Assembly: GCF_002149035.1 (NCBI RefSeq)
Contig: NZ_NGFP01000053.1
Location: forward strand, 1 to 40,608
Source: Streptosporangium minutum
GTDB taxonomy: Bacteria > Actinomycetota > Actinomycetes > Streptosporangiales > Streptosporangiaceae
Length of the DNA: 40,608 nt
Direction: 5' to 3'
A program made the position numbers and the translations under genes. The notes below the pieces were generated by a model that was not told the DNA's origin, did no database searches, and was given only the letters and a program-made list of their open reading frames with translations. Below are positions 1-14,370 of this stretch, one piece after another. Position 1 is the stretch's first letter, and every line of letters begins with the position of its first letter.

Positions 1-16
1 CCCGATGGGAGGGAGC

Positions 17-1000
17 ATGCGCGTAGCCGAGAACCTGAACGCCGCCCTGCACGGGCTGCTGGACGATGATCCCACCGCCTACATGATCGGCGAGGACATC
101 ATCGACCCGTACGGCGGCGCCTTCAAGGTCACCAAGGGCCTGTCGACCCGTTTCCCCGGCCGAGTGATCGGCACTCCGATCAGCGAGGGCGCCCTGACCG
201 GCGTCGCGGCGGGGCTGGCGCTGACCGGCAACACGGCGGTGGCCGAGATCATGTTCGGCGACTTCGTGGCGCTCGCCTTCGACCAGCTCTGCAACTTCGC
301 GAGCAAGTCGGTCTCCATGTACGGCAGGCGACTGCCCCTGCGGATGGTGGTGCGCTGCCCGACCGGCGGCGGCCGGGGTTACGGCCCCACGCACAGCCAG
401 AGCCTGCAGAAGCACTTCGTCGGCATGCCGGGGCTGTCGCTGTATGAGATGTCCCCCTTCCACGACAACCGCGCCGTGCTCGGCGCGATGCTGGAGCGGG
501 GCGAGCCGTGCGTCTTCTTCGAGGACAAGGTCCTCTACACCCGGCAGATGGACCAGGTCGACCCGCTTTTCACGGTGCGCCGTGAGGGCGACCTGGCCGT
601 GGTCGACCTGCGCGGCCCGGACGCCCGGCCCGACTGCGTGATCATCGCGCCGGGCGGGATGGCGCACCGGGCGCTGGCCGCGATGCGGTCCCTGCTGGTG
701 GAGCAGGAGATCTCCTGCCGGCTGCTGGTCCCGTCCCGGCTCTACCCGCTGGACGCCGACGCGCTGCTGCCGTTCCTGGGGGAGGTCGTCCTGGTCGCCG
801 AGGAGAGCACGGCCGGCGGCACCTGGGGCAGCGAGGTCGCCCACCTCCTGCACGCCCGTCTCTGGGGCCGCCTGCGCGGCCCCGTCCGCCTCGTCCACTC
901 CCGGGCCAGCGTGATCCCCACCGCCGCCCACCTCGAGAACGAGGTCCTGGTGGGGGAGTCCACGATCCACCACGCCGTACGAGAGGCCCTGCGTGGCTGA
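17..1000 (+). CDS. 2-oxoacid dehydrogenase E1 component, beta subunit
   Basis: This is the transketolase-like beta subunit of a thiamine-diphosphate 2-oxoacid (or acetoin-type) dehydrogenase. With an alpha subunit it decarboxylates a 2-oxo substrate and passes the acyl group to the lipoyl arm of E2. The 327 residues match the family's usual length. GEDI near residue 25 lies in the conserved TPP-site region, and PISEGALTGVAAGLALTG and the C-terminal transketolase domain are present. I start at ATG 17 because GGAGG lies at 8-12; an in-frame ATG at 5 lacks a site. The 3' end overlaps the E2 gene by 8 nt, so the two are co-translated. No alpha subunit is in the window; it is presumably upstream. 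Linkage to an NRPS suggests the complex makes a dedicated acyl unit and is not housekeeping PDH. That role, and the substrate, are inference. Confidence 0.88.
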   Translation: MRVAENLNAALHGLLDDDPTAYMIGEDIIDPYGGAFKVTKGLSTRFPGRVIGTPISEGALTGVAAGLALTGNTAVAEIMFGDFVALAFDQLCNFASKSVSMYGRRLPLRMVVRCPTGGGRGYGPTHSQSLQKHFVGMPGLSLYEMSPFHDNRAVLGAMLERGEPCVFFEDKVLYTRQMDQVDPLFTVRREGDLAVVDLRGPDARPDCVIIAPGGMAHRALAAMRSLLVEQEISCRLLVPSRLYPLDADALLPFLGEVVLVAEESTAGGTWGSEVAHLLHARLWGRLRGPVRLVHSRASVIPTAAHLENEVLVGESTIHHAVREALRG

Positions 1001-2321
1001 CATCCGCGTCCCCAAGCTCAACAACAACGACACCGAGTACCTGGTCGTGGAGTGGCTCGTCGAAGACGGCAAGCCCGTCCAGGCCGGAGACCCCGTCGCC
1101 GTCCTGGAGACCTCCAAGGCGGCCGACGAACTGGAGGCCGCCGAGTCCGGTCACCTCCACCACGTGGCCGGGCTCAACACCTGGATCGCCCCCGGCGCCG
1201 TCCTCGCCCGGATCACCCCCGAGGCCGTCCCGGCGGCGTCCGCCGACGCGCCGGTCACCTCCGGGGCGGTTCCCGCTTCCGCTTCCGCGGCGTCCCCGGA
1301 CACGCCGGCCGCCGCCGCGGACGTCCCCGCGACCGGCGCCCCCGTCATCACCGACCCCGCCCGCGCCCTGATGGACGCGCTCGGCGTCACCGTCGCCCAG
1401 GTCACGGCCCTCGGCCTGCCCATCGTCCGCCGCGGCGACGTGGAACGCCTGGCCGGGAGCGCCGGTGCGCCGCCGGCCACCGGTGGGCACGCCGGAGCCA
1501 ACGGCGCCCACGGGCACGCCGGAGCCAACGGCGCCCACGGGCACGCGGGAGCGGACGGCGCCCACGGGCACGCCGGAGCCGACGGCGGGGTTCCCGGACA
1601 GGCCCGCGCCGCCGACGGTCCCTTCTCGCAGGCGGGGGAGCGGGCCGGAGAGGCGGGCTCCGACGGCGCGGCGGGCACGTATCCGCTCTCCCGGGTGCAG
1701 CGGGCAGTGGCCAGGGCGGTCACGACCTCGCACAGCACGATCCCCGCCGCCTACACGGTGGTGAAGTTCGACGTGGGGCCGCTGCTGGCGCGGACCAGGG
1801 GGCTGAGCAGGGATGTCCGCCGGCCGGTCGGGCTGGCGGAGCTGTTCGTCCAGGCCGTGGCCGCGCTGCATCCGGCGTACCCGCTGTTCTTCGCCTCGGT
1901 CGACGGGGATCGGGCCCGGCCGGCGGAGGCGCCGCGTGTCGGCGTCACCTTCGACATGGGCCAGGGCCTCTACGTGCCGGTCGTCCACGACACGGGGTCG
2001 CTCCGGGAGATCGCCGACACGCTCATGCGCTACCGGCTGGCGGCCACCGAGGGCGACTTCCGGGAGAGGGACCTCACCGGCGCCAACATCGCCGTCACCC
2101 TGCACACCGACGCCGACGTGATCCTCGCGATCCCCTTCGTCTTCCCCGGGACGGTCTGCGCGCTCGCGGTCACCTCGCCGCAGCCCGAGGTCGTCCTCGG
2201 TGACGACGGCGCCGTGACGACGAGAACCGTCGCGAACATCGGCCTCGCCTACGACCATCGACTGATCAACGGCCGGGACGCCGCGCTGTTCCTCGCCGCC
2301 CTCCGGATGGAGCTGCATTGA
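993..2321 (+). CDS. Dihydrolipoamide acyltransferase (E2) with repeat linker and Asn in the catalytic motif
   Basis: This is the E2 subunit of a 2-oxoacid dehydrogenase-type complex. Domains in order are: an N-terminal lipoyl domain (about residues 1-75, lipoylation site Lys42 in ETSKAADE); an Ala/Pro linker; a peripheral-subunit-binding-like helix pair (about 120-152); a His/Gly/Ala-rich linker of nearly four 9-residue repeats (166 onward); and the acyltransferase domain (about 225-442). The usual C-terminal signature DHRxxDG reads DHRLING here: His422 is kept but the Asp is Asn426. GTG at 993 overlaps the E1-beta 3' end, and the stop codon overlaps the TTG start of the NRPS. The tight coupling implies that its acyl product feeds the NRPS. 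A direct acyl transfer to the NRPS condensation domain is possible but unproven. A degraded or low-activity transferase is the alternative. Confidence 0.85.
   Translation: MADIRVPKLNNNDTEYLVVEWLVEDGKPVQAGDPVAVLETSKAADELEAAESGHLHHVAGLNTWIAPGAVLARITPEAVPAASADAPVTSGAVPASASAASPDTPAAAADVPATGAPVITDPARALMDALGVTVAQVTALGLPIVRRGDVERLAGSAGAPPATGGHAGANGAHGHAGANGAHGHAGADGAHGHAGADGGVPGQARAADGPFSQAGERAGEAGSDGAAGTYPLSRVQRAVARAVTTSHSTIPAAYTVVKFDVGPLLARTRGLSRDVRRPVGLAELFVQAVAALHPAYPLFFASVDGDRARPAEAPRVGVTFDMGQGLYVPVVHDTGSLREIADTLMRYRLAATEGDFRERDLTGANIAVTLHTDADVILAIPFVFPGTVCALAVTSPQPEVVLGDDGAVTTRTVANIGLAYDHRLINGRDAALFLAALRMELH
1488..1586 (+). repeat. 27-nt in-frame tandem repeat in the E2 linker
   Basis: Three full 27-nt units and a partial fourth encode HAGANGAHG, HAGANGAHG, HAGADGAHG and HAGADG. 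The copies are nearly identical at the DNA level, so they probably arose by recent slippage. They lengthen the flexible linker between the subunit-binding region and the acyltransferase core. Confidence 0.9.
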
Positions 2322-5300
2322 CCGAGACGACGCTGTCGGACGCCAAGCGGGCGCTGCTCGCCCAGCGGCTCCGACGCCGGGAGGAGTCCCGGACCATCAC
2401 ACCCCGGGCCCCGGGAACCACCCCGCCCCTGTCCCACGCCCAGGAACGCCTGTGGTTCCTGGAGCAGTACCGCCCCGGCACCACCACCTACACCGTCCCC
2501 GTCGCGGCGCGCCTGCGCGGAGACCTGGACGCCGACGCGCTGCGCCGGGCCCTGGACGAGATCGTCGCGCGCCACGAGGCCCTGCGGACGCGCTTCCTCA
2601 CCACCGAGGACGGCACACCCGAGCTCGTGGTCGACGGGCCCCGCCCGGCCGAGCTGCGCGTCACCGAGGCGGCGGACCTGGAGGCCGCGGTCGAGCTGCT
2701 CGACGCCGAGCTCGCCACCCCCTTCGACCTGGAGCACGGCCCCCTCTTCCGGACCGTCCTGGTACGGCTCGCGCCCGACGACCACGTGCTTCTGATCGCC
2801 GCCCACCACACCGTCATCGACGGCTGGTCCAGCGACGTGATCATCCGTGAGCTGCTCGCCCTGCACGACGGCGCGAACCCGCCGTCCGCCCCGGTCGGTT
2901 ACGGCGACTACGCCCTCTGGCAGCGCGGACGCGAGCACCGCGGCGAGATCGACCACTGGCGGGAGAAGCTCGCCGGTCTGCCCGCCATCGAGCTCCCCAC
3001 CGACCGGCCGCGCCCGGCCGAGCAGGGGTACGAGGGAGCCGCCCTCGACTTCCGGCTGGACGCCGACCTCACCCGGCGGCTCACCGACCTGGGCAAGGCC
3101 GCCGGGGCGACGCCGTACATGACGCTGCTGGCCGCCTTCCAGGTGCTGCTGGCCCGGTACTCGGGACAGTCGGACTTCGCGGTCGGCTCCCCGGTCGCGG
3201 GACGCGGCCTGCCGGAGCTGGACGGCGTCGTCGGCATGTTCGTCAACACGCTGGTGCTCCGCGCGGACCTGGCCGACGATCCGTCGTTCAGCGCGTTCCT
3301 GGCCCGCACCCGCGAGACCGCGCTGGACGCCTTCGCGCACCAGGAACTCCCGTTCGACCAGCTCGTCAACGAGCTGAACGTGGTCCGCGACGTGAGCCGG
3401 TCGCCGCTCGTCCAGGTGACGTTCGCGCTGCAGAACTTCAAGGCCGGGGAGGAGGACGGGCGGGTCTCGTACGTCACCCTGCCCGCCAGGACCACCCGTT
3501 TCGACCTGGGCCTCTACCTGTTCGAGAACCCTGACGGGCTGGTCGGGAACTTCACCTACAGCACGGCGCTGTTCGACCCGGAGACCGTGGAGCTGCTGGC
3601 GTCCCGGTTCGAGACGCTGCTGCGTTCCATCGTGGAGTCGCCGCAGACGCGGGTCGGAGAGCTCTCCCTGCTCTCCGAGGACGAGCGGGACCTGGTCCTC
3701 GGCTTCGGCGCCGGCACCGCCCCGGCGCCCGCCGGCCACGACCTGCTCCACGACCTCGTCACCGCGCAGGCCGCGCTGACCCCCGGAGCCACGGCCGTGG
3801 TCTGCGGCGACTCCCTGACCTACGCCGAGCTCGACGACCGCTCCACCCGGATCGCCGCCCTGCTGAGGAACCGCTACGGCGTCGGCCCCGACACCCGGGT
3901 CGGCGTGTTCCTGGAGCAGTCCACCGACCTCGCGGCGGCCGTCATCGGCGTCATGAAGGCGGGCGGCTCCTACGTCCCCCTCGATCCCAAGCAGCCCCGC
4001 GACCGGCTGGCCCACATGCTCGGCGACGCCGGAGCCGTCGTCGTCGTCACCACCTCCGCCCTCCGCGACCTGGTCCCGGGGCCGCCGGCCGTCTGCCTGG
4101 ACGAGGAGACGCTGCGGGAGACCGCGTTCGAGGCGCCCCCGGTCACGGCCGACCACCTCGCGTACGTGATCTACACGTCGGGGACGACCGGGCGGCCCAA
4201 GGGCGTCGGGGTGCAGCACCGGCAGGTGCTCACCTACCTGGCCGGGGTCAGGGAGCGGTTCGAGGTCGAGCCCGGGGCGGTCTACACGCTGCTGCAGTCG
4301 CTCTCGTTCGACTTCGGGGTGACGATCTTCTACCTGTCGCTCATGACCGGCGGCGAGCTGCACCTGGTCGACCCGCAGTCGCCGGTCGAGGAACTCGCCG
4401 GGCAGCTCGGCCGTACCGACTACCTGAAGATGACCCCGTCCCACCTGGCCTCGCTGCTCGCCGACCCCGACATCGCCGACCCGGCCGACCTGCTCCCGCG
4501 CAAGCTGCTCGTCCTCGGCGGCGAGGCGTCCAAGTGGAGCTGGGCCCGGGAGCTGAGCGCGCACACCACCGTGGTCAACCACTACGGTCCCACCGAGGCC
4601 ACGGTCGGCATCTCCACCCACGCCGTCACCGGCGAGGCCGAGCGGTCGCTGAACCTCCCGATCGGCAGGCCGCTCCCCGGGGCCCGGGTCTACGTGCTGG
4701 ACGAGCATCTGCGGCTCGTCCCGCCCGGCATGACCGGTGAGATCTACCTCGGCGGCGACCGGCTCGCCCGGGGATACCTCGGCCAGTCCGGCCTGACGGC
4801 GGACAGGTTCCTGCCCGACCCGTACGGCGAGCCCGGCGCGCGCATGTACCGGACCGGCGACCTGGGCCGCTGGCTGCCCTCGGGCGACCTGTGCTTCCTC
4901 GGCCGCCGTGACCTCCAGGTGAAGGTCCGGGGCTACCGGGTGGAGCTGTCGGAGATCGAGTCGGTCCTCACCGACCAGCCCGGCGTCGCGCACGCCGTCG
5001 TCGAGCTGCGCCAGGACCGGTTGATCGGCTACCTCGTCGGCGAGCGGACCAGCGTGAGCGAGCTGCGCGCGGCGCTCGGCGAGCGGCTCCCCGAATACAT
5101 GATCCCCGCGCGGTTCGTCTGGCTGGACGAGCTGCCACTGAAGTCGCACGGCAAGGTCGACCGGGCCAGGCTGCCCGAACCCGACGAGGAGCGGCCGGAC
5201 CAGGAGGCCGGGTTCGTCCCGCCGCAGACGCCTGTCGAAGAGGCGATCGCGGGGGTATGGGCCCAGGTGCTCGGACTGGTCCAGGTCGGCGTGCTGGACG

Positions 5301-7990
5301 ACTTCTTCGACCTGGGCGGACATTCGCTGCTCGCCGCACAGGTGGTCGCCCGCCTGCGGAAAGCCCTTCCCGCAGGCGGGCGCCAGGTAAGCATCCTGGA
5401 CCTGTTCAAGCACCGGACCGTCCGCGAGCTCGCGCAGCTCGTCGAGGCCGGCGACGACGGTCCGCGCATGCTCCTGCACCGGCTCACCCCGGTCCGCACC
5501 GCCACCTCCACCCTGGTCTGCGTGCCGTACGGCGGCGGCAGCGCGGCCATCTACCAGCCGCTGGCCGACGCGATGCCCGCGGGCTGGGCGTTGCACGCGG
5601 TCGCCGTCCCCGGTCAGGAGATGGGGCTGATCGAGGAGACCCGGCCGGTGGCCGAGGTCGCGCAGGGCTGCGTGGAGGAGATCCTCAAGGGGATCCGGGG
5701 GCCGCTGGCGCTGTACGGCCACTGCGGGCTCGGCGTCATGCTGACCGTGGAGATCGCCCGGCGCCTGGAGGCGGCGGGACGGCCGGTGGAGGCCATCTAC
5801 CTCGGCGGCATCTTCCCCTTCGCCCGGCCCGCCTCGACGCTGGCCTGGCTGTCGAACCTGACCGACCGCCTCCGCAGCGACCAGGTCTGGGCCAACGCCC
5901 TCCAGGCCGCCGGTCTCGACGTCGAGGACCTCGACCGGGACCAGCTCAAGTTGATGATCGACAACCGCCGCCAGGGCACCAAGGAGGCGGAGCGCTACTT
6001 CACCCGCCTGTTCGCCGAAGGCGTCGAGCCGCTCAGGGCGCCGATCATCTCGGTGGCCGGCGAGCGTGACCCGGCCACCGAGTTCTACCAGGAGCGCTAC
6101 CGCGAGTGGCACCTGCTCACCGACTCCACCGCCGTGGTCGTCCTGGACGAGGCCGGGCACTTCTTCCTGAAGTACCGGGCCGAGGAGCTGTCGGCCATCG
6201 TCACCGGCACCCACCGGGCCATCGCCTCCGGCGAGACCGCCGCGCTGGGCCGTACCGACCGATCCACCTGGTGGCTTGAGGGCATCTCCGACCAGCGCGC
6301 CTCCGAGGGGCCTGGGGCCGTCGCGGGCGTGTCCGGTCGACTCGGGTCCGTTCCGGGTGTGTCCGGGCTGGCTGGATCCGACTCGGATGCGTCCGTCCCT
6401 GGTGTGTCCGGGCAGGCCGGGTCGGGTTCGGAGGTTCCTGGACAGGTCGTGTCCGGCTCGGGCGTTCTCGGGCAGGCCGGGGCAGGTCCGGATGTCCTCG
6501 GGCAGACTGAGGCTGTGCCGGACGGCTCCGTTCCGGGGGTCGGCCGGCAGGACATACCCGCTCCCCGCGTCGCCGGGCACGGGGCGTCCACCCCGTACGG
6601 GACGCGGCGGGAGCCGAAGCCCAGCATGAAGCGGTTCGCCACGGTGGCGGCGGGACAGCTCATCTCGATCATCGGGTCGTCGCTGACCGAGTTCGCGGTC
6701 CCGCTGTGGATCTACGTCACCACCGGGTCGCTCGCCAGGTTCGCCCTGTTCTCGGTCCTCGCACTCGTCCCCGGCATGCTGGTGTCCCCTCTCGCGGGGG
6801 CCCTCGTCGACCGCTACGACCGGCGCAGGGTGATGCTCGCCGGGGACATCGGCGCGTTCGGCACCCAGCTCGCCCTCGGGATCCTGCTGTGGACCGGAAA
6901 CCTCCAGGTCTGGCACATCTACCCGCTCCTGGTGCTGCTGTCGGTCGCGCTCACCTTCCAGCGCCTCGCCTACAACTCGGCCGTCCCCCAGCTGGTCCCC
7001 AAGCGTTTCCTCGGCCACGCCAACGGCGTCGTCCAGATGGTGACCGGCACCGCTCAACTCGTCGTCCCGCTGGTCGCGGTCGGCCTGATGGCCGTGATCG
7101 GCCTTGAGGGCATCCTCGTCCTGGACGTCGTCTCCTACGTCTTCGCGATCGCGGTGCTGCTGTTCGTCCGCTTCCCGAAGACGATGGCCTGGAAGCGCAG
7201 GGAGTCCCTGGTCTCCGAGATGGTGGAGGGGTGGAAGTTCTCCTGGGGCAACCGGGGCTTCCGCGGCATGCTCTTCTTCTTCGCGGTGCTGAACATCTTC
7301 CTGTCCCCGCTGTTCCTGCTGATCTCACCGCTCGTCCTGGGCTTCGCCACCCTCCAGGACGTCGGCCGGATCTCCTTCGCCGGGGGACTCGGCGTCTTCC
7401 TCGGCGGTCTGACCATGACCGTCTGGGGCGGTCCACGGCGGCAGCGGCTGCGCGGAGTCATGCTCTCCACCGTGGTCCTCGCCGTCTTCTGCCTGATCAC
7501 CGGCCTCCAGCAGAACCTGCTCGTGATCGCGGTCGGCGCGTTCGGCATGTCGTTCTGGCTGACCCTGCTCAACGGCGTCTATGCCACGATCATCCAGGTG
7601 AAGGTGCCGCAGCGCTTCCACGGCCGGGTCATCGCGCTCAACACGCTGATCGCCTGGTCCACCCTGCCGATCGGTTTCGGCCTGGTCGCGCCGTACGGCA
7701 GTGCGGCGTTCGAGCCGCTGCTGCTGCCCGGCGGCCCGCTGGCCGACACGGTCGGCCTGGTGCTCGGCACCGGTGCGGGCCGGGGCGTCGGCCTGATGTA
7801 CGTGCTGTTCGCCATCGCCATCGCCGTCACCGCGCTGGTCGCGATGCGCACCCGGACCCTGTCCCGGTTCGACGTGGACGTGCCGGACGCGCTCCCGGAC
7901 GACCTGGTCGGCTTCCAGACCCTGCAGAGGCGCCATGGACAGGAGCAGCAGCACGAGCCGGTCGCGGAGGTGACCGCCCTGCAGACATGA
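2318..7990 (+). CDS. NRPS (C-A-T-TE) fused to an MFS exporter
   Basis: This single 1,890-residue chain joins a full nonribosomal peptide synthetase module to a transporter. The C domain (about 35-455) has HHTVIDG at 163-169. The A domain (about 475-950) has YTSGTTGRPKG, YGPTEATVG, YRTGDLG and catalytic Lys946. By motif alignment its pocket reads D665-F666-T669-K704-V732-G734-H755-V763-G764-K946, close to the known aspartate code DLTKVGHIGK. The carrier domain has Ser1003 in DLGGHSLL. The TE (about 1055-1300) has GHCGLG with Cys1136 in place of Ser, plus likely Asp1251 and His1281. A Gly/Ser/Val-rich repeat linker (about 1331-1415) leads to an MFS of the EntS/MFS_3 type (about 1438-1870). The start is TTG, with GGATGGAG at 2305-2312, overlapping the E2 stop. 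As there is no loading module, the C domain should take an acyl donor, perhaps from the E1/E2 pair. The product would be an N-acyl-aspartyl compound or cyclised derivative; this is inference. Confidence 0.9.
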   Translation: MTETTLSDAKRALLAQRLRRREESRTITPRAPGTTPPLSHAQERLWFLEQYRPGTTTYTVPVAARLRGDLDADALRRALDEIVARHEALRTRFLTTEDGTPELVVDGPRPAELRVTEAADLEAAVELLDAELATPFDLEHGPLFRTVLVRLAPDDHVLLIAAHHTVIDGWSSDVIIRELLALHDGANPPSAPVGYGDYALWQRGREHRGEIDHWREKLAGLPAIELPTDRPRPAEQGYEGAALDFRLDADLTRRLTDLGKAAGATPYMTLLAAFQVLLARYSGQSDFAVGSPVAGRGLPELDGVVGMFVNTLVLRADLADDPSFSAFLARTRETALDAFAHQELPFDQLVNELNVVRDVSRSPLVQVTFALQNFKAGEEDGRVSYVTLPARTTRFDLGLYLFENPDGLVGNFTYSTALFDPETVELLASRFETLLRSIVESPQTRVGELSLLSEDERDLVLGFGAGTAPAPAGHDLLHDLVTAQAALTPGATAVVCGDSLTYAELDDRSTRIAALLRNRYGVGPDTRVGVFLEQSTDLAAAVIGVMKAGGSYVPLDPKQPRDRLAHMLGDAGAVVVVTTSALRDLVPGPPAVCLDEETLRETAFEAPPVTADHLAYVIYTSGTTGRPKGVGVQHRQVLTYLAGVRERFEVEPGAVYTLLQSLSFDFGVTIFYLSLMTGGELHLVDPQSPVEELAGQLGRTDYLKMTPSHLASLLADPDIADPADLLPRKLLVLGGEASKWSWARELSAHTTVVNHYGPTEATVGISTHAVTGEAERSLNLPIGRPLPGARVYVLDEHLRLVPPGMTGEIYLGGDRLARGYLGQSGLTADRFLPDPYGEPGARMYRTGDLGRWLPSGDLCFLGRRDLQVKVRGYRVELSEIESVLTDQPGVAHAVVELRQDRLIGYLVGERTSVSELRAALGERLPEYMIPARFVWLDELPLKSHGKVDRARLPEPDEERPDQEAGFVPPQTPVEEAIAGVWAQVLGLVQVGVLDDFFDLGGHSLLAAQVVARLRKALPAGGRQVSILDLFKHRTVRELAQLVEAGDDGPRMLLHRLTPVRTATSTLVCVPYGGGSAAIYQPLADAMPAGWALHAVAVPGQEMGLIEETRPVAEVAQGCVEEILKGIRGPLALYGHCGLGVMLTVEIARRLEAAGRPVEAIYLGGIFPFARPASTLAWLSNLTDRLRSDQVWANALQAAGLDVEDLDRDQLKLMIDNRRQGTKEAERYFTRLFAEGVEPLRAPIISVAGERDPATEFYQERYREWHLLTDSTAVVVLDEAGHFFLKYRAEELSAIVTGTHRAIASGETAALGRTDRSTWWLEGISDQRASEGPGAVAGVSGRLGSVPGVSGLAGSDSDASVPGVSGQAGSGSEVPGQVVSGSGVLGQAGAGPDVLGQTEAVPDGSVPGVGRQDIPAPRVAGHGASTPYGTRREPKPSMKRFATVAAGQLISIIGSSLTEFAVPLWIYVTTGSLARFALFSVLALVPGMLVSPLAGALVDRYDRRRVMLAGDIGAFGTQLALGILLWTGNLQVWHIYPLLVLLSVALTFQRLAYNSAVPQLVPKRFLGHANGVVQMVTGTAQLVVPLVAVGLMAVIGLEGILVLDVVSYVFAIAVLLFVRFPKTMAWKRRESLVSEMVEGWKFSWGNRGFRGMLFFFAVLNIFLSPLFLLISPLVLGFATLQDVGRISFAGGLGVFLGGLTMTVWGGPRRQRLRGVMLSTVVLAVFCLITGLQQNLLVIAVGAFGMSFWLTLLNGVYATIIQVKVPQRFHGRVIALNTLIAWSTLPIGFGLVAPYGSAAFEPLLLPGGPLADTVGLVLGTGAGRGVGLMYVLFAIAIAVTALVAMRTRTLSRFDVDVPDALPDDLVGFQTLQRRHGQEQQHEPVAEVTALQT
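6308..6562 (+). repeat. Degenerate PGVSG/VLGQAG repeat linker between TE and MFS
   Basis: About 85 codons of low-complexity sequence contain imperfect repeats (AGVSG, PGVSG, PGVSGQAG, VLGQAG, VLGQT). It has no hydrophobic core, so it probably serves as a flexible tether between the soluble synthetase and the membrane domain. The repeats are also visible in the DNA as recurring CGGGCAGGCCGG-like units. Confidence 0.75.
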
Positions 7991-8074: not shown

Positions 8075-8228
8075 GGCGGTGCGGCCACCGCGGGGCCTGT
8101 CCCGTCCGGGCTTCTCGATTCCACGGACGCAACCCCTGGAGCCGGGTGGAGGTCACCGGCCTCCCCGTCACCCGAAGGTCCCGTCTTCCTTCCGAAGACC
8201 ATCGGAAGTCCTTCGATTCTCTCGGCAG

Positions 8229-8265
8229 GGTTCTCCGGAGAGTCTCTCCGGAAGGTTCTCCGGAG
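8229..8265 (+). repeat. Short TCTCCGGA repeat cluster
   Basis: GGTTCTCCGGAG occurs at 8229-8240 and again at 8254-8265, a 25-nt spacing. A related TCTCTCCGGAA lies between them. Each core is palindromic (CTCCGGAG). It sits just before the TetR/NmrA remnant. It could be an operator left over from the lost regulator or slippage debris; I cannot tell which. Confidence 0.55.
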
Positions 8266-9122
8266 GGGCGGGAGTCGACCCGGCCCTCGTCATGCAGCAC
8301 TTCGGCTCCAAGCAGGAGCTGTTCAGCCGGGCCGTCCAGGACTCTTCGGTGCCGGAGGACGCGGAGCCCGGGGAGCTCGTCGAGCGGATGCTGGAGACAC
8401 TCGGCGTGAAGCTGAGCGGGCTGCCCCCGGCCTCGTTCGGGTCGGCGCTCTCTCCCGGAGACCGGTTGTTCCTGAACAGCTCGCTGTGGCCCGGCTTCGT
8501 CCCCCGGTACCGCGAGGTGATCGACCTCGCACGATCGGCCGACGTGGCCCAGGTGGTGAAGGTGTCCGTGCGCGGGGCGGAACCGGGGGCGCTGCTCGGC
8601 GGCGGAATGCACGGCGAGGTCGAGGCACACCTCAAGGCGTCGGGGCTGGCCTGGTCGATCCTGCAGCCGGTCGGGTTCATGCAGAACCTGCCCGCGGAGG
8701 TCTCCTTCCAGGACGGCGAGGGCCGCTTCCACGGCTCCTACGGTCCGGGCCGGGTGGGCTACATCGACGCCAGGGACATCGCCGACGTGGCCGCAACCCT
8801 GCTCACCCGGCCGGTCGGGGCGGATGAGACCTACGTCCTCACCGGCCCCGAGGCGCCGACTCACGACGAGATCGCCGCAGCCGTCAGCGCCGCGCTCGGC
8901 CGCACCGTCCGCTACGTCGACCTCCCGGTGGAGGAGTTGACCGGCCGTCTGGAGCGCCAGGGCCTCCCCGGACCCGCCGCCCGTGACCTCGCCGAACTCA
9001 TGGCCCAGATCGGGGACGGCCGATGGTCCACCACCACCGGAACGGTCGAGGCCCTGACCGGCCGCCCGCCCCGATCCCTCACCCGCTTCCTCACCGACCA
9101 CGCCGCAGCCTTCCGCCTGTGA
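8259..9122 (+). pseudogene. Remnant chimera: TetR DNA-binding fragment fused to a truncated NmrA-like oxidoreductase
   Basis: One open frame holds pieces of two families. The first part (about 8265-8430) contains AGVDPALVMQHFGSKQELF, typical of the end of a TetR helix-turn-helix, but the first TetR helices and most of the ligand domain are missing. From about 8440 the frame reads as an NmrA/NAD(P)-binding SDR-like protein (VVKVSVRG, LAWSILQPVGFMQNL, YIDARDIADVAATLL) lacking the N-terminal Rossmann GxxGxxG segment. The end at 9122 looks natural for the NmrA family. A deletion joining a TetR gene to an adjacent oxidoreductase gene would explain this. An in-frame ATG at 8292 could still give a protein, so a live truncated NmrA-like gene is the alternative. 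It converges on the helicase gene. Confidence 0.65.
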
Positions 9123-9277: not shown

Positions 9278-12200
9278 TCAGGCCCGTAGGCGCAGGCCTC
9301 TCGGGGTCGGGTGGAAACCGGCGGCCTCCAGGGCGGCGCCCAAAGGGGAGTCGTTGATGGCGGTGCCGTCCGCGCGTTCCACGGTCAGCTTGCCGAGGGC
9401 GCCGTCGCGCACGGCCAGGGCCAGGGCGTCCACGGCGGGCTGGAGGCGGTCGTCGTCGGTGAAGGACAGCAGGGTCTTGCCGCCACGCTCGACATAGAGC
9501 ACCAGGTGCCCGTCCACGAGCACCACCAGCGATCCCGCCTTCCGGCCCGGCTTGTGGGAGACCTCCCCGGGATGGGCGGGCCAGGACAGCGCCGCGCCGT
9601 ACGGGTTGGCCGGGTCGGCCGCCGCCAGTACCACCGCGCACCGTCCGTTCCCCTCCGGCCTCCGGGCGCTCCACGGGTCAGGGTCGGGTGCCTCGGAGCG
9701 CGGTGGCGTGGCGGCGGCGCGCATGCGGTCGACGGCTCCGGGGAGGGCGAACTGGGCGCCGCCCAGCCCCTCGACGAAATAGCCCCGACGGCACCGGCCG
9801 CTCTCCTCGAAGGCACGGAGCACCTGGTAGACCGCGGCGAACCCGCCGGGCAGCCGTTCGGCGGTGACCGCGCCCCGCGTCACCACGCCGTGCCGCTCCA
9901 GCAGTGCCTCGGCCTGGGCGTGTGCCCGTTGGGTCGGGTCGTCCGCGGCTCCGGGCAGCAGCCACCAGCGACCGCCCACGGTCGGCGGCCCGCTCCGGGT
10001 GGGCAGTACCGGCCGCCGCCTGCGTGTCGTGGCCGGGCGGTGGGCGGGACGGCCGGTGCCGAGCGTGGCCCGCAGCGGTGCGAGCGTGTCACCGGTGATC
10101 CGCCCGGCCCACACCAGGTCCCACACCGCGGCGGTCAGCGTCCCGTCGTCCGGGACCGAACCGGCCGTCAGGGATCCGACACGGCCCGCCAGCTCGCGGA
10201 AGAACAGCGCCCCTCCACCGCCGAGCACCTCAAGGACCGCCTCGTGCAGCGGGGTCATGGTGATCTCGACCGGATCGGGCATCAACAGGGGGGCGGTGTC
10301 GGCGAAATACAGCGCCACCCAGCCGTCCCCACCCGGCAGGGAGCCCTGCCCGGCCCAGAGGACCTCGCCCGAGGACGTCAGCTCGTCCAGCAGCGACGGG
10401 TCGTATCCGGGGACCCGTGAGGGCAGGACCAATGTCTCCAGCGCCGACGCCGGCACCGCCGCGCCCTGCAACTGCTCGACCGCGCTCACCAGCGCGTCGA
10501 TCGGCGGCCTGCCCCGCTGCGGGGCGCCGCTGATGCCGTGCCAGGCGGGGGCGAAGACGGCCAAGGTCTCGGGGGAGACCGGCTCCACCTCCTTGCGGAG
10601 CCGGGCCAGGGACCTGCGGCGCAGCATCCGCAGCACCCCTGCGTCGCACCACTCCTCTCCCCGGCCGCCAGGCCTGAACTCCCCGCTCACCACCCGGCCG
10701 GAGACGGCCAGGCGGCGCAGCGTGTCGGTGACGACCGCCGGGCCGAGCCCGAACCTGGCGGCGGCCGTACTCGCCGGAAACGGGGTGCGCGTGCGGGCGT
10801 GCCTGGAGACCAGGTCGCCCAGCGGGTCGTCCACCGGCTCCAGGAAGGCGTGCGGCACTCCCACCGGCAGCGGCACGCCGAGCGCGTCGCGCAGCCGGGC
10901 GGCGTCCTCGATGGCCGCCCACTGCTCCTGCCCGGCCACTCGCACCCTGATCGCCCGCCGGGCGCTCTCCAGGCCGGTCAGCCAGGCTGGGTCGCCCTCA
11001 CGCAGGCTCACGTCGGCCGCGACCAGGGGGCCGTGCGAACGGAGCAGGTCGGCGAGGTCCTCGGCGTCGCGGAGCGGCCGGTCCAGCCGGGCCAGCTCAC
11101 GCTCGGTGTCGGCGATCACGTCGGGGTCGAGCAGCTCACGCAGGTCCGCCTGGCCCAGCAGCTCGGCCAGCAGGCTGGTGTCGAGCGCGAGCGCCTGGGC
11201 ACGGCGCTCGGCCAGGGGGGCGTCCCCCTCGTACATGAACGCGCCGACGTAGTTGAACAGCAACGACGCCGCGAACGGCGACGCCTGGGAGGTCTCGACC
11301 TCGACCAGCCGCACGCGCCGCGCCGAGATGTCCCGCATGAGCCGGACCAGCCCCGGCACGTCGAACACGTCCTGCAGGCACTCGCGCATCGTCTCCAGCA
11401 CGACCGGGAACGAGCCGTACCGGCTGGCCACGTTGAGCAGGTGCGAGGCCCGCTGCCGCTGCTGCCACAGCGGGGTGCGCTTGCCGGGGGTACGGCGCGG
11501 CAGCAGCAGGGACCGTCCCGCGCACTCCCGGAAGCGCGCCGCGAACAGCGCCGAGCCGCCGAGCTCCTCGGTGACGATCTGCTCGATCTCCTCGGCGTCG
11601 AAGACCGCGACGTCCGACGGGGGACCGGAGAGCGTGTCGGGGATGCGCAGCACGATCCCGTCGTCGGAGTGCACGGCCTGGACGTCGACGCCGTAGCGCT
11701 CCCGCAGCCGCCGCCCGATCGCCAGGGCCCACGGCGCGTGCACCCGCGCCCCGTACGGCGAGTGCACCACGACCCGCCAGTCGCCCAGCTCGTCGTGGAA
11801 CCGCTCGACCAGCAACGTCCGGTCGTCCGGCACGTATCCGGTCGCCTGCCGCTGCTCGGCCAGGTAGGACAGCAGGTTGGCCGCGGCGAACTCGTCGAGC
11901 CCCGCCGCCCTGATCCTCTCCACGGCGCGCTCCCGCGCCGGGTCCCCCTGTCCCGCAGGGCCGGGTTTCCCGTTGTCTCCCGCCGGATCGCCCGGCTCCG
12001 CCGAGTCCGGCCTGGCGCCGTCTCGCGCGAGGCTCCCCTTCCTGCCGGATCCCGGCCCGGCGCCGGAGTCGGCGCCCGCGCCGGACATCTCACGCAGGAA
12101 CGAGCCGATCGCCCTGCCCAGCTCCGCCGGGCGTCCCGCGTTGTCGCCGTGCCAGAACGGCAGCTTGCCCGGCTGGCCGGGGGCTGGGGAGACCAGCACC

Positions 12201-14113
12201 CGGTCGGCCGTGATGTCCTCGATCCGCCAGGAGGTCGCGCCGAGCACGAACACGTCCCCCGCCCGGGACTCGTAGACCATCTCCTCGTCCAGCTCGCCCA
12301 CCCGCGAGGACTTCTCCCCGACCAGGAAGACGCCGAACAGCCCTCGGTCGGGGATCGTGCCGCCGTTGGTCACGGCCAGCCGCTGGGCCCCGGGGCGCCC
12401 CCGCAGGGTGCCGGTGACCCGGTCCCACACGATGCGTGGGCGCAGCTCGGCGAACTCCTCGCTCGGATAGCGCCCGGCGAGCATGTCGAGCGTCGCCTCC
12501 AGGGCGCTGCGGGGCAGCGTCCGGTACGGCGCGGCACGCCGTACGACGGTCTCCAGGTCGTCCACCGTCCACTCGTCCAGCGCGGTCATCGCCACGATCT
12601 GCTGGGCGAGCACGTCGAGCGGGTTGCGCGGGTAGCGGAGCTCCTCGATCTCCCCGCTCCTCATCCGCTCGGCCACCACGGCCGTCTGGACCAGGTCGCC
12701 GCGGTATTTGGGGAAGATCACGCCACGTGAGACGGCTCCCACCTGGTGGCCGGCCCGGCCGATCCGCTGCAGGCCGCTGGCCACGCTCGGCGGCGACTCC
12801 ACGCAGGCGACCAGGTCCACCGCGCCCATGTCGATGCCGAGCTCCAGGCTGGAGGTCGCGACCACCGCCGGCAGCCGCCCGGACTTGAGCGCCTCCTCGA
12901 TCTGGGAGCGCTCCTCCTTCGACACCGACCCGTGGTGGGCCCGCACGATCTCCGGGACCGTCCCCTTGGCCGCACCGGCCTGCGCCATCATCGCCGCCGG
13001 GGTGGACAGGGACGCCGGCGGCGCGGGGAAGCCCTCGGCCCAGTGCACCGGCTCCGACGGCTCCGACGGCTCCGGCTCGCCGGTCCTGCGCTCCCACGCC
13101 AGCTCGTTGAGGCGGGTGCACAGCCGCTCGGCCAGCCGCCGGGAGTTGGCGAACACGATCGTCGAGCTGTGGTCCTCGATCAGGTCGAACAGCCGCTCCT
13201 CCACGTGCGGCCAGATGGACCGCCGGGCCGGGGGCTCCAGCAGCCACCGGTCGTCGTCATCGGGCTGGGAGGGGCGCGGAGCGCCGTCGAGCTCCGTCAT
13301 GTCCTCGATCGGGACGACCACCTTGACCTCGATCGTCTTCTCCGAAGGCGGCTGGATCACCGCCGCCGGGCGGGAACCGCCGAGGAAGGCGGCCACCTCG
13401 TTCACCGGCCGCACCGTCGCCGACAGACCGATCCGCTGCGCGGGCCGGGGGAGCAGGGTGTCGAGCCGCTCCAGGCTGAGGGCCAGGTGCGCGCCGCGCT
13501 TGGTGGCCGCCACGGCGTGCACCTCGTCGACGATGACCGTCTCCACGCCCCGCAGCGCCTCGCGGGCCTGGCTGGTCAGCAGCAGGAACAGCGACTCGGG
13601 GGTCGTGATGAGGATGTCCGACGGCCTGGCCGCGAAACGGCGCCGCTCCTGCGGCGAGGTGTCACCCGACCGGATCGCCACCGAGATCTCCGGCACCGCG
13701 AGCCCGAGCCGCCGCGCGGTCTGCCGCATTCCGGCCAGCGGCGCCCGGAGGTTGCGCTCGACGTCCACCGCCAGGGCCTTGAGCGGCGACACGTAGAGCA
13801 CCCGGCACCGCTCGGCGGGGGCGTCGTCCTCGCGTGAGCGCCTCCGCCCGCCCGTGGCGCCCGCGGTGTCCTCGGCGGGCCCGCCCGTCGCGGCCGCGCG
13901 TTCGGCGGCCAGCCGGTCGAGCGACCACAGGAACGCGGCCAGCGTCTTGCCTGAGCCGGTCGGCGCGACCACGAGGGTGTTGTCCCCCCGGGCGATCGAT
14001 GCCCACGCGCCCTCCTGGGCGGCGGTGGGCGAGGCGAAGGCTCCGGTGAACCAGTCCCTGGTCACAGGGGTGAAGTGGTCGAGCGCTGATCCGGTCACGG
14101 CTCCATACTGCAT
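9278..14113 (-). CDS. lhr: Lhr-type DEAD/H-box ATP-dependent helicase
   Basis: This is a large Lhr (long helicase-related) superfamily 2 enzyme, a 3'-to-5' nucleic-acid translocase linked in other actinobacteria to the DNA-damage response. Counting from ATG 14113 it has APTGSGKT at 50-57, DEVH at 196-199, SATV at 231-234 and QRIGRAGH at 449-456, followed by the long Lhr C-terminal region. The length of about 1,611 residues suits full-length actinobacterial Lhr. A Gly/Ala/Pro-rich insert around residues 680-730 is probably a disordered loop. The start is uncertain. GTG 14143 and GTG 14098 are in frame, and CAGTAT lies exactly 6 nt before GTG 14098, which would fit leaderless expression. The gene stands alone and is divergent from the VOC gene. 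Confidence 0.93.
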   Translation of the reverse strand: MQYGAVTGSALDHFTPVTRDWFTGAFASPTAAQEGAWASIARGDNTLVVAPTGSGKTLAAFLWSLDRLAAERAAATGGPAEDTAGATGGRRRSREDDAPAERCRVLYVSPLKALAVDVERNLRAPLAGMRQTARRLGLAVPEISVAIRSGDTSPQERRRFAARPSDILITTPESLFLLLTSQAREALRGVETVIVDEVHAVAATKRGAHLALSLERLDTLLPRPAQRIGLSATVRPVNEVAAFLGGSRPAAVIQPPSEKTIEVKVVVPIEDMTELDGAPRPSQPDDDDRWLLEPPARRSIWPHVEERLFDLIEDHSSTIVFANSRRLAERLCTRLNELAWERRTGEPEPSEPSEPVHWAEGFPAPPASLSTPAAMMAQAGAAKGTVPEIVRAHHGSVSKEERSQIEEALKSGRLPAVVATSSLELGIDMGAVDLVACVESPPSVASGLQRIGRAGHQVGAVSRGVIFPKYRGDLVQTAVVAERMRSGEIEELRYPRNPLDVLAQQIVAMTALDEWTVDDLETVVRRAAPYRTLPRSALEATLDMLAGRYPSEEFAELRPRIVWDRVTGTLRGRPGAQRLAVTNGGTIPDRGLFGVFLVGEKSSRVGELDEEMVYESRAGDVFVLGATSWRIEDITADRVLVSPAPGQPGKLPFWHGDNAGRPAELGRAIGSFLREMSGAGADSGAGPGSGRKGSLARDGARPDSAEPGDPAGDNGKPGPAGQGDPARERAVERIRAAGLDEFAAANLLSYLAEQRQATGYVPDDRTLLVERFHDELGDWRVVVHSPYGARVHAPWALAIGRRLRERYGVDVQAVHSDDGIVLRIPDTLSGPPSDVAVFDAEEIEQIVTEELGGSALFAARFRECAGRSLLLPRRTPGKRTPLWQQRQRASHLLNVASRYGSFPVVLETMRECLQDVFDVPGLVRLMRDISARRVRLVEVETSQASPFAASLLFNYVGAFMYEGDAPLAERRAQALALDTSLLAELLGQADLRELLDPDVIADTERELARLDRPLRDAEDLADLLRSHGPLVAADVSLREGDPAWLTGLESARRAIRVRVAGQEQWAAIEDAARLRDALGVPLPVGVPHAFLEPVDDPLGDLVSRHARTRTPFPASTAAARFGLGPAVVTDTLRRLAVSGRVVSGEFRPGGRGEEWCDAGVLRMLRRRSLARLRKEVEPVSPETLAVFAPAWHGISGAPQRGRPPIDALVSAVEQLQGAAVPASALETLVLPSRVPGYDPSLLDELTSSGEVLWAGQGSLPGGDGWVALYFADTAPLLMPDPVEITMTPLHEAVLEVLGGGGALFFRELAGRVGSLTAGSVPDDGTLTAAVWDLVWAGRITGDTLAPLRATLGTGRPAHRPATTRRRRPVLPTRSGPPTVGGRWWLLPGAADDPTQRAHAQAEALLERHGVVTRGAVTAERLPGGFAAVYQVLRAFEESGRCRRGYFVEGLGGAQFALPGAVDRMRAAATPPRSEAPDPDPWSARRPEGNGRCAVVLAAADPANPYGAALSWPAHPGEVSHKPGRKAGSLVVLVDGHLVLYVERGGKTLLSFTDDDRLQPAVDALALAVRDGALGKLTVERADGTAINDSPLGAALEAAGFHPTPRGLRLRA

Positions 14114-14370
14114 CGCCCCACCGACAGAATCCGCCAGGGTCACGACTGGCCCGAGCGGGCCGCTCGCCGGGCGGATCGGCTCCGTCGCACCGACCGGCTG
14201 GGAGGGCGACGCTGGGAGGACGATACCGTCGCCGGCTCCGTGTTCCCGAACCCCGGAACGTCGATGGAGATCCTCGCCACCATGGCGTGACGGCTGGGGA
14301 AGGTTCGCCGCGTCCTGTCGGGGAGATAGAGATCAGACGAGCACCCGACGCATTGAGCGGTGAGCCAGCG

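Follow-up and report, generated by a model that had tools for sequence, protein, structure and literature searches.

A nonribosomal peptide synthetase termination module and an MFS domain in one polypeptide, recurrent in Streptosporangiaceae

Nonribosomal peptides normally leave the cell via separate transporters, whose tie to the synthetase is unclear. Database names such as 'non-ribosomal peptide synthetase/MFS transporter' are in use. The enterobactin synthase EntF and the MFS exporter EntS are a pair serving one product and, like the fusion described here, combine a C-A-T-TE synthetase with an MFS protein, but as two proteins instead of one; the NCBIfam model for EntF scores 398.7 bits on the fused protein, far below its cut-off of 2400. 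Another related case is Pls, the epsilon-poly-lysine synthetase, whose membrane part is not known to be an MFS transporter. Pls resembles the fusion in being an NRPS with transmembrane domains in one chain, and differs from it in lacking traditional condensation and thioesterase domains, as stated in the available part of PMC9617413. A third system, LplT-Aas, unites an MFS transporter and an adenylate-forming enzyme in apparently one ORF in some bacteria and couples transport to chemistry; unlike the fusion, it flips lysophospholipid inwards and has neither NRPS nor thioesterase (available part of PMC11416262). In the same excerpt the fused LplT-Aas forms are described as uncharacterised, and engineered placement of Aas on the LplT C terminus is reported to have disrupted LplT expression (PMC11416262). 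Within open-licence full texts, the scope of our literature search, no paper was recognised as describing a C-A-T-TE-MFS fusion, and the available part of PMC3924187 contains nothing on NRPS-MFS fusions.

Domain organisation and recurrence of the fusion

The sequence analysed, hereafter the window, is a stretch of 40,608 nucleotides from Streptosporangium minutum (contig NZ_NGFP01000053.1). On its forward strand, positions 2318..7990 form a single ORF of 1890 aa without internal stop, and its TTG start codon overlaps the TGA of the E2-like gene upstream. Pfam places C, A, PCP, TE and MFS domains in this order, every one of them above its gathering score. The condensation domain (2423..3691, residues 36-458, Pfam Condensation) carries HHTVIDG, a form of the Condensation-domain consensus HHxxxDG, and the adenylation domain (3764..5155, residues 483-946, in Pfam AMP-binding 483-821 and AMP-binding_C 879-946) has the ten-residue code DFTKLLHVGK. 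The peptidyl carrier protein (5243..5443, PP-binding residues 976-1042) shows a GGHS site. It is followed by the thioesterase (5459..6295, Pfam Thioesterase from residue 1065), with a Cys-Asp-His triad in GHCGLG, GERDP and GHFFL and an extra predicted strand, TWWLEGVS, at its end. A disordered, hypervariable linker of about 104 residues (6299..6610) then leads to the MFS domain (6614..7879; Pfam MFS_1 and MFS_3), in which 12 TM helices were counted by hand on the model. The marks of an NRPS termination module, namely C, A, PCP and TE in order, HHxxxDG, the PCP serine and the TE triad, are all present. The original prediction of a full C-A-T-TE module and a multi-helix MFS domain in one frame is thus borne out by the ORF and its Pfam domains.

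A search for other proteins of this architecture, which the same prediction had called for, yielded 62 proteins that have TE and MFS in a single frame; most come from Streptosporangiaceae, two from Embleya and one from Streptomyces clavuligerus. They comprise 59 from genome loci and 3 from plasmid records; the 59 are what is left of 65 TE+MFS frames after removal of six exact repeats, 22 repeating or cut locus ids having been left out beforehand. Some of the 59 are near-identical, and many, lying on short sequence stretches, cover only the A or T domain onward. A stop between TE and MFS was looked for and was seen in none of the 62. A scan of genome contigs gave 33 loci, of which the 23 from Streptosporangiaceae (L009-L031) all have C-A-T-TE-MFS in one frame. 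Their genera are Streptosporangium and Acrocarpospora, for which family membership was confirmed, and Planobispora, Planomonospora, Microbispora, Nonomuraea and Microtetraspora, which we take to belong to the same family. At the other ten loci no fusion is visible: in the acidobacterial L032 the C-A-T-TE and MFS parts are separate ORFs, eight loci match in the MFS only and L039 matches in the A domain only.

The window genome itself encodes seven fused proteins (contigs C478, C54, C148, C198, C401, C301 and C118). Genome draws, each including the window's genome, were searched with a T-TE-MFS query, a match to which is not equal to a demonstrated fusion. Within the window's family the query matches 72 of 150 genomes at 1e-20, and in 56 of the 150, by hand count, the best match lies below 1e-100. 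A class-wide draw gave matches in 12/246 genomes at 1e-60, ten of them from the window's family. In an order-wide draw 35/101 match; since the rows shown, matching or not, are all from the window's family, this draw says little on other families. Outside the family, a fused protein of 4022 aa (L117) was found in another family of the same class, and plasmid records with the fusion come from the laboratory species Streptomyces clavuligerus (three records match, the fusion being read in one) and Embleya (two). The former, on plasmid NZ_CP027859.1 of strain ATCC 27064 (L124, 13939-20556), is a frame of 2206 aa with a Cys-TE and the same A code; the PLSDB table has no gene entered at this place.

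Relatives in many genera, together with open frames of more than 1800 aa of the same architecture in the one-contig genomes G101, G100, G139 and G031, rule out an annotation artefact or a chance fusion for practical purposes, and the likelihood that two genes were joined by an assembly or annotation error is vanishingly small. The C-A-T-TE-MFS architecture is real and is widespread in one family.

Transporter domain, linker and proposed role

We favour, with a probability of roughly two in three, the reading that a terminal NRPS module releases its peptide via a Cys-thioesterase beside a tethered MFS exporter, and that this arrangement is reused in several gene clusters. The protein would close a short NRPS assembly line and bring an exporter of its own. 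Its C domain would couple the chain arriving from upstream to whichever residue the A domain has loaded; the TE cysteine would take the chain over from the PCP, and ring closure or hydrolysis would free it. The MFS domain, held nearby on a tether of variable length, would then pump the product outward, probably by proton antiport. Such a tether, which need not be a channel, could set the synthetase:exporter ratio, draw the terminal module to the membrane and raise the local product concentration, and the whole unit would be reused among clusters with the A domain sometimes exchanged. Transport direction, cargo and proton coupling are features that we infer.

Pfam assigns residues 1444-1781 to MFS_1 (80 bits, cut-off 33.4) and 1438-1786 to MFS_3 (62.5 bits, cut-off 27). 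The H+ antiporter model TIGR00900 scores 197.6 bits, below its curated cut-off of 319.6, and the macrolide exporter models MefA (101.7 bits, cut-off 675) and MefB (117.7 bits, cut-off 800) both match weakly. Sequence searches of the PDB give the MFS part a single match, the sugar transporter GlcP, which covers about one third of it. Foldseek places human MCT1, SPNS2, VAChT and VMAT1 first; the E-values of the exporters NorA, MdfA and LmrP are close to theirs. Since many MFS folds match at similar E-values, the fold cannot separate export from other uses, and the export role that we infer rests on context and family. That the fold search singles out no exporters would also suit an MFS part that is mainly a membrane anchor or that pumps some compound other than the product of the attached module. 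We consider this quite unlikely, as a complete 12-helix fold, 163 invariant columns out of 422 (18 sequences) and a low dN are more than an anchor should require. Compared with six relatives, the MFS part has dN 0.04-0.10 and dS 0.28-0.42, like C, A and TE, and is under purifying selection as the enzyme domains are. Where synthesis, release and a transporter had been predicted to share one chain, the data (62 proteins, low MFS dN) add that it is one maintained polypeptide.

The linker behaves differently, with dN 0.63-0.75 against the same six relatives and, on an unsure alignment, dN/dS of about 0.5-1 in five of them (not computable in one). In the window protein, about 104 residues after the last conserved TE strand are modelled at a pLDDT of about 27. 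AlphaFold modelling of PCP-TE-linker-MFS from 24 sequences (mean pLDDT 67.7, pTM 0.56) shows the PCP, the TE, an MFS with twelve helices by hand count and, between TE and MFS, a disordered linker (354-457); relative domain placement is not interpretable in this model. In the model alignment T343, W344, W345 and G348 of the strand closing the TE are invariant; beyond this strand conservation ends until the start of the MFS. The spacer from TE motif to MFS ranges from 10 to 283 residues with a median of 42 in the 51 of 62 proteins that were measurable by pattern; a measure that takes in the end of the TE gives 66-337 residues. Even between the window and the near-identical L009, whose domains are 99-100% identical, the TE-MFS gap differs by 43 residues. 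Variable length, poor conservation and the disorder in the structure prediction, which had been proposed for this segment, suit a tether, not a fixed channel.

The original prediction had gone further, in having the thioesterase hand its product directly to the exporter, which would protect the host or prevent back-hydrolysis; on this account the TE would bind to the MFS and deliver the product into the MFS cavity. In the fusion the TE always adjoins the MFS, a conserved strand closes the TE, and spacers of 10-13 residues in 7/51 measured proteins (including L044, L060 and L030) would permit close contact. Domain distances among C, A, T, TE and MFS correlate at 0.84-0.94 throughout in 35 full proteins. 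In these related proteins the partial correlation of TE with MFS, given C and A, is 0.59, as against 0.14 for A with MFS given TE. That of C with MFS given TE is 0.40, so co-variation is not unique to TE and MFS. Set against the other spacers, which reach 283 residues, are disordered in the window model and change at the dN/dS noted above, direct hand-off appears unlikely: the co-variation of TE and MFS speaks in its favour, and the long, poorly conserved spacers against it.

Disordered linkers are also possible protease targets, and a Met stands just before the MFS in at least 48/59 fused proteins (46 found by pattern plus L053 and L085, read by eye), as might be expected if the NRPS and MFS halves were made or matured separately through an internal start or linker cleavage. 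This we judge very unlikely. Such a Met is absent in 11/59, the TE-MFS junction is stop-free throughout, and a Shine-Dalgarno-like 4-mer precedes the Met in only 6 of the 46 checked for this one signal. An internal start for a separate MFS was set aside, as these 46 share no consistent ribosome binding site.

With regard to the history of the tethered unit, a tree of the MFS parts was built by a quick method from 73 rows (62 fused, 10 separate and 1 unlabelled), its long branches leaving the deepest order unsure. The labels fused and separate need two changes on it, and the fusion may have had a single origin. The unlabelled row is L118, the frame of which is cut by the contig end; there, at 4012-7053 on the reverse strand, the frame continues after an MFS of the fused kin into a stretch resembling, by eye, a SAM methyltransferase. 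In some members a similar TE-MFS is joined to a different A domain; L122, for one, is 38% identical to the window in A, 63% in TE and 71% in MFS.

Gene neighbourhood and adenylation codes

The window starts inside a gene cluster. Upstream of the fusion gene, Pfam identifies as cluster partners an E1-beta-like gene (5..1000, forward strand) and a 2-oxoacid dehydrogenase E2-like gene with lipoyl and catalytic domains (993..2321, forward strand). The matching E1-alpha is found in the same genome right at the end of contig C24, a contig that also carries a two-module NRPS besides stand-alone A, C and PCP genes; no E3 gene was seen with the E1/E2 genes of the NRPS cluster. As with NapB and NapD in naphthyridinomycin biosynthesis, the E1/E2 genes here could perhaps supply a two-carbon or acyl unit. 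When the neighbourhoods were compared, as had been proposed, E1-alpha, E1-beta, E2, a stand-alone A, a C or C-T protein and a C-like protein were repeatedly found next to the fusion, across several though not all cluster layouts; at L014 and L022-L024 no E1/E2 was found within the sequence stretch covered. The window-type clusters L046 and L079 continue with a DMFA2_C protein, which has a counterpart of 57% identity at one Embleya locus. These N,N-dimethylformamidase-like proteins (L079, 10125-11957; L046, 12533-14368) adjoin NRPS genes.

At L078/L079 no second transporter was seen between the NRPS, A, C, PCP, E1 and E2 genes and the fusion gene. ABC-transporter-like genes were noticed by eye farther out, at about 16.5-18.9 kb in L046 and about 2.9-6.1 kb in L080. 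Separate MFS genes of the same kin lie near NRPS genes at L047, L119, L121 and L032, the NRPS of L047 having by eye a thioester reductase-like end. Downstream in the window, the ORF at 8079-9122 (forward strand), with only the later part of an NmrA/NAD-binding match after a start that by eye is TetR-like, looks like decayed genes at the cluster edge. The Lhr-type ATP-dependent helicase gene at 9278-14143 (reverse strand), which scores above its NCBIfam cut-off, probably lies outside the cluster.

The window-type code DFTKLLHVGK, which by specificity-code tables we take to be Asp-like, occurs in 28/33 readable A-domain rows. Other terminal codes are presumably Ser-like (L045, L052, L053, L085, L123 and L126), Cys-like (L122) and Dap/Dab-like (L051), and upstream A codes look, by our assumption, Gly and Dap/Dab-like. 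Such codes depend on the alignment, that of L045 being DVWHVCLIDK in one and DVWRVCLIDK in another. A known product with the order Gly, Dap/Dab-like, Asp-like was sought, the order itself being a guess from ten-residue codes, and none was identified.

Thioesterase type and comparison with known systems

The thioesterase was correctly predicted to be present in the module, in frame; its nucleophile type had been missed. The nucleophile is Cys in 61/62 fused TEs (58/59 from genome loci and 3/3 from plasmids), L051 having Ser, and the catalytic Asp and His are found in 59/59. In PDB searches ObiF1 ranks first both with the window TE (phmmer, E 4e-18) and with a profile of 19 TE sequences (E 7e-32), followed by type II TEs such as BorB and RifR, and later still, in the profile search, SulM. 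For the TE, Foldseek on the model places ObiF1 and SulM first, then AB3403 and RifR. On alignment, the window Cys, Asp and His fall on the ObiF1 triad Cys1146, Asp1254 and His1284, whose roles are given in the available part of PMC6668435; by our own reading, chain and paper numbering are offset by 20. Alignment to ObiF1 GGQDP and GGH puts the catalytic Asp at position II (after beta7), as in RifR. The nucleophile elbow is one residue longer (GHCGLG) than in ObiF1 (GHCAG) in 54/59. According to PMC11298585, ObiF1 and SulM alone among NRPS TE domains carry the Asp here, and both close four-membered rings.

With a Cys nucleophile and the Asp placed as in ObiF1, release of a strained ring by the fused TE is possible. 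Against it, this Asp position is common to type II TEs, AB3403 is a Cys TE without known ring chemistry, and the terminal A code is Asp-like in those 28/33 readable rows; Pfam scans and BLAST matches of genes from window-type clusters (NRPS, C-like, DMFA2-like, A, C, PCP, E1-alpha, E1-beta and E2) showed no Asp hydroxylase. It is tempting to extend the idea to the whole family, as a cassette with varied upstream modules whose Cys-TE would release a strained or reactive C-terminal ring (beta-lactone, thiolactone or other), the exporter being tethered because the product is reactive or toxic; we offer this tentatively and on balance doubt it.

Two narrower assignments were rejected. A SulM-type beta-lactam TE does not fit, the Gln-Cys-Asn motif being absent and the window having His-Cys-Gly. 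Nor is the Cys-TE an exclusive mark of the MFS fusion, as an unfused TE of the window genome also has Cys. This is the NRPS thioesterase without MFS at C43:6120-6419, which reads GYCMG. In the window genome Cys is found in 7/7 MFS-fused TEs and, among the six other TEs above 46 bits, in one, with Ser in five; this count leaves out seven weaker matches. The seven unfused TE rows in the 59-protein comparison represent three distinct genes, all with Ser.

With release domain and exporter joined in a natural protein that is widely kept, coupling of release to export becomes directly testable, and a natural linker series of about 10 to 283 residues is available within the fusion proteins. The Cys-type TE makes fusion clusters, including that on the Streptomyces clavuligerus plasmid, a good hunting ground for strained-ring peptides.

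The nearest known systems on the thioesterase side have been characterised structurally. SulM (sulfazecin, PDB 8w2c/8w2d), the second Foldseek match, shares with the window TE the Cys nucleophile and the Asp at position II; they differ in that SulM has Gln-Cys-Asn, the criterion for a beta-lactam TE in the available part of PMC11298585, whereas the window family has mostly His-Cys-Gly. The closest is ObiF1, the obafluorin beta-lactone synthetase (PDB 6n8e; PMC6668435, available part), which, like the fusion, is a C-A-PCP-TE protein with one further domain after the TE. It has the same Cys nucleophile and RifR-like Asp and is the top TE match by phmmer, profile and Foldseek alike. However, the same part of PMC6668435 describes its post-TE domain as MbtH-like and docked against the protein's own A domain, with no transporter, and ObiF1 turns a beta-hydroxy amino acid into a beta-lactone, whereas the window family, in which an MFS domain takes the place after the TE, mostly has an Asp-like code.
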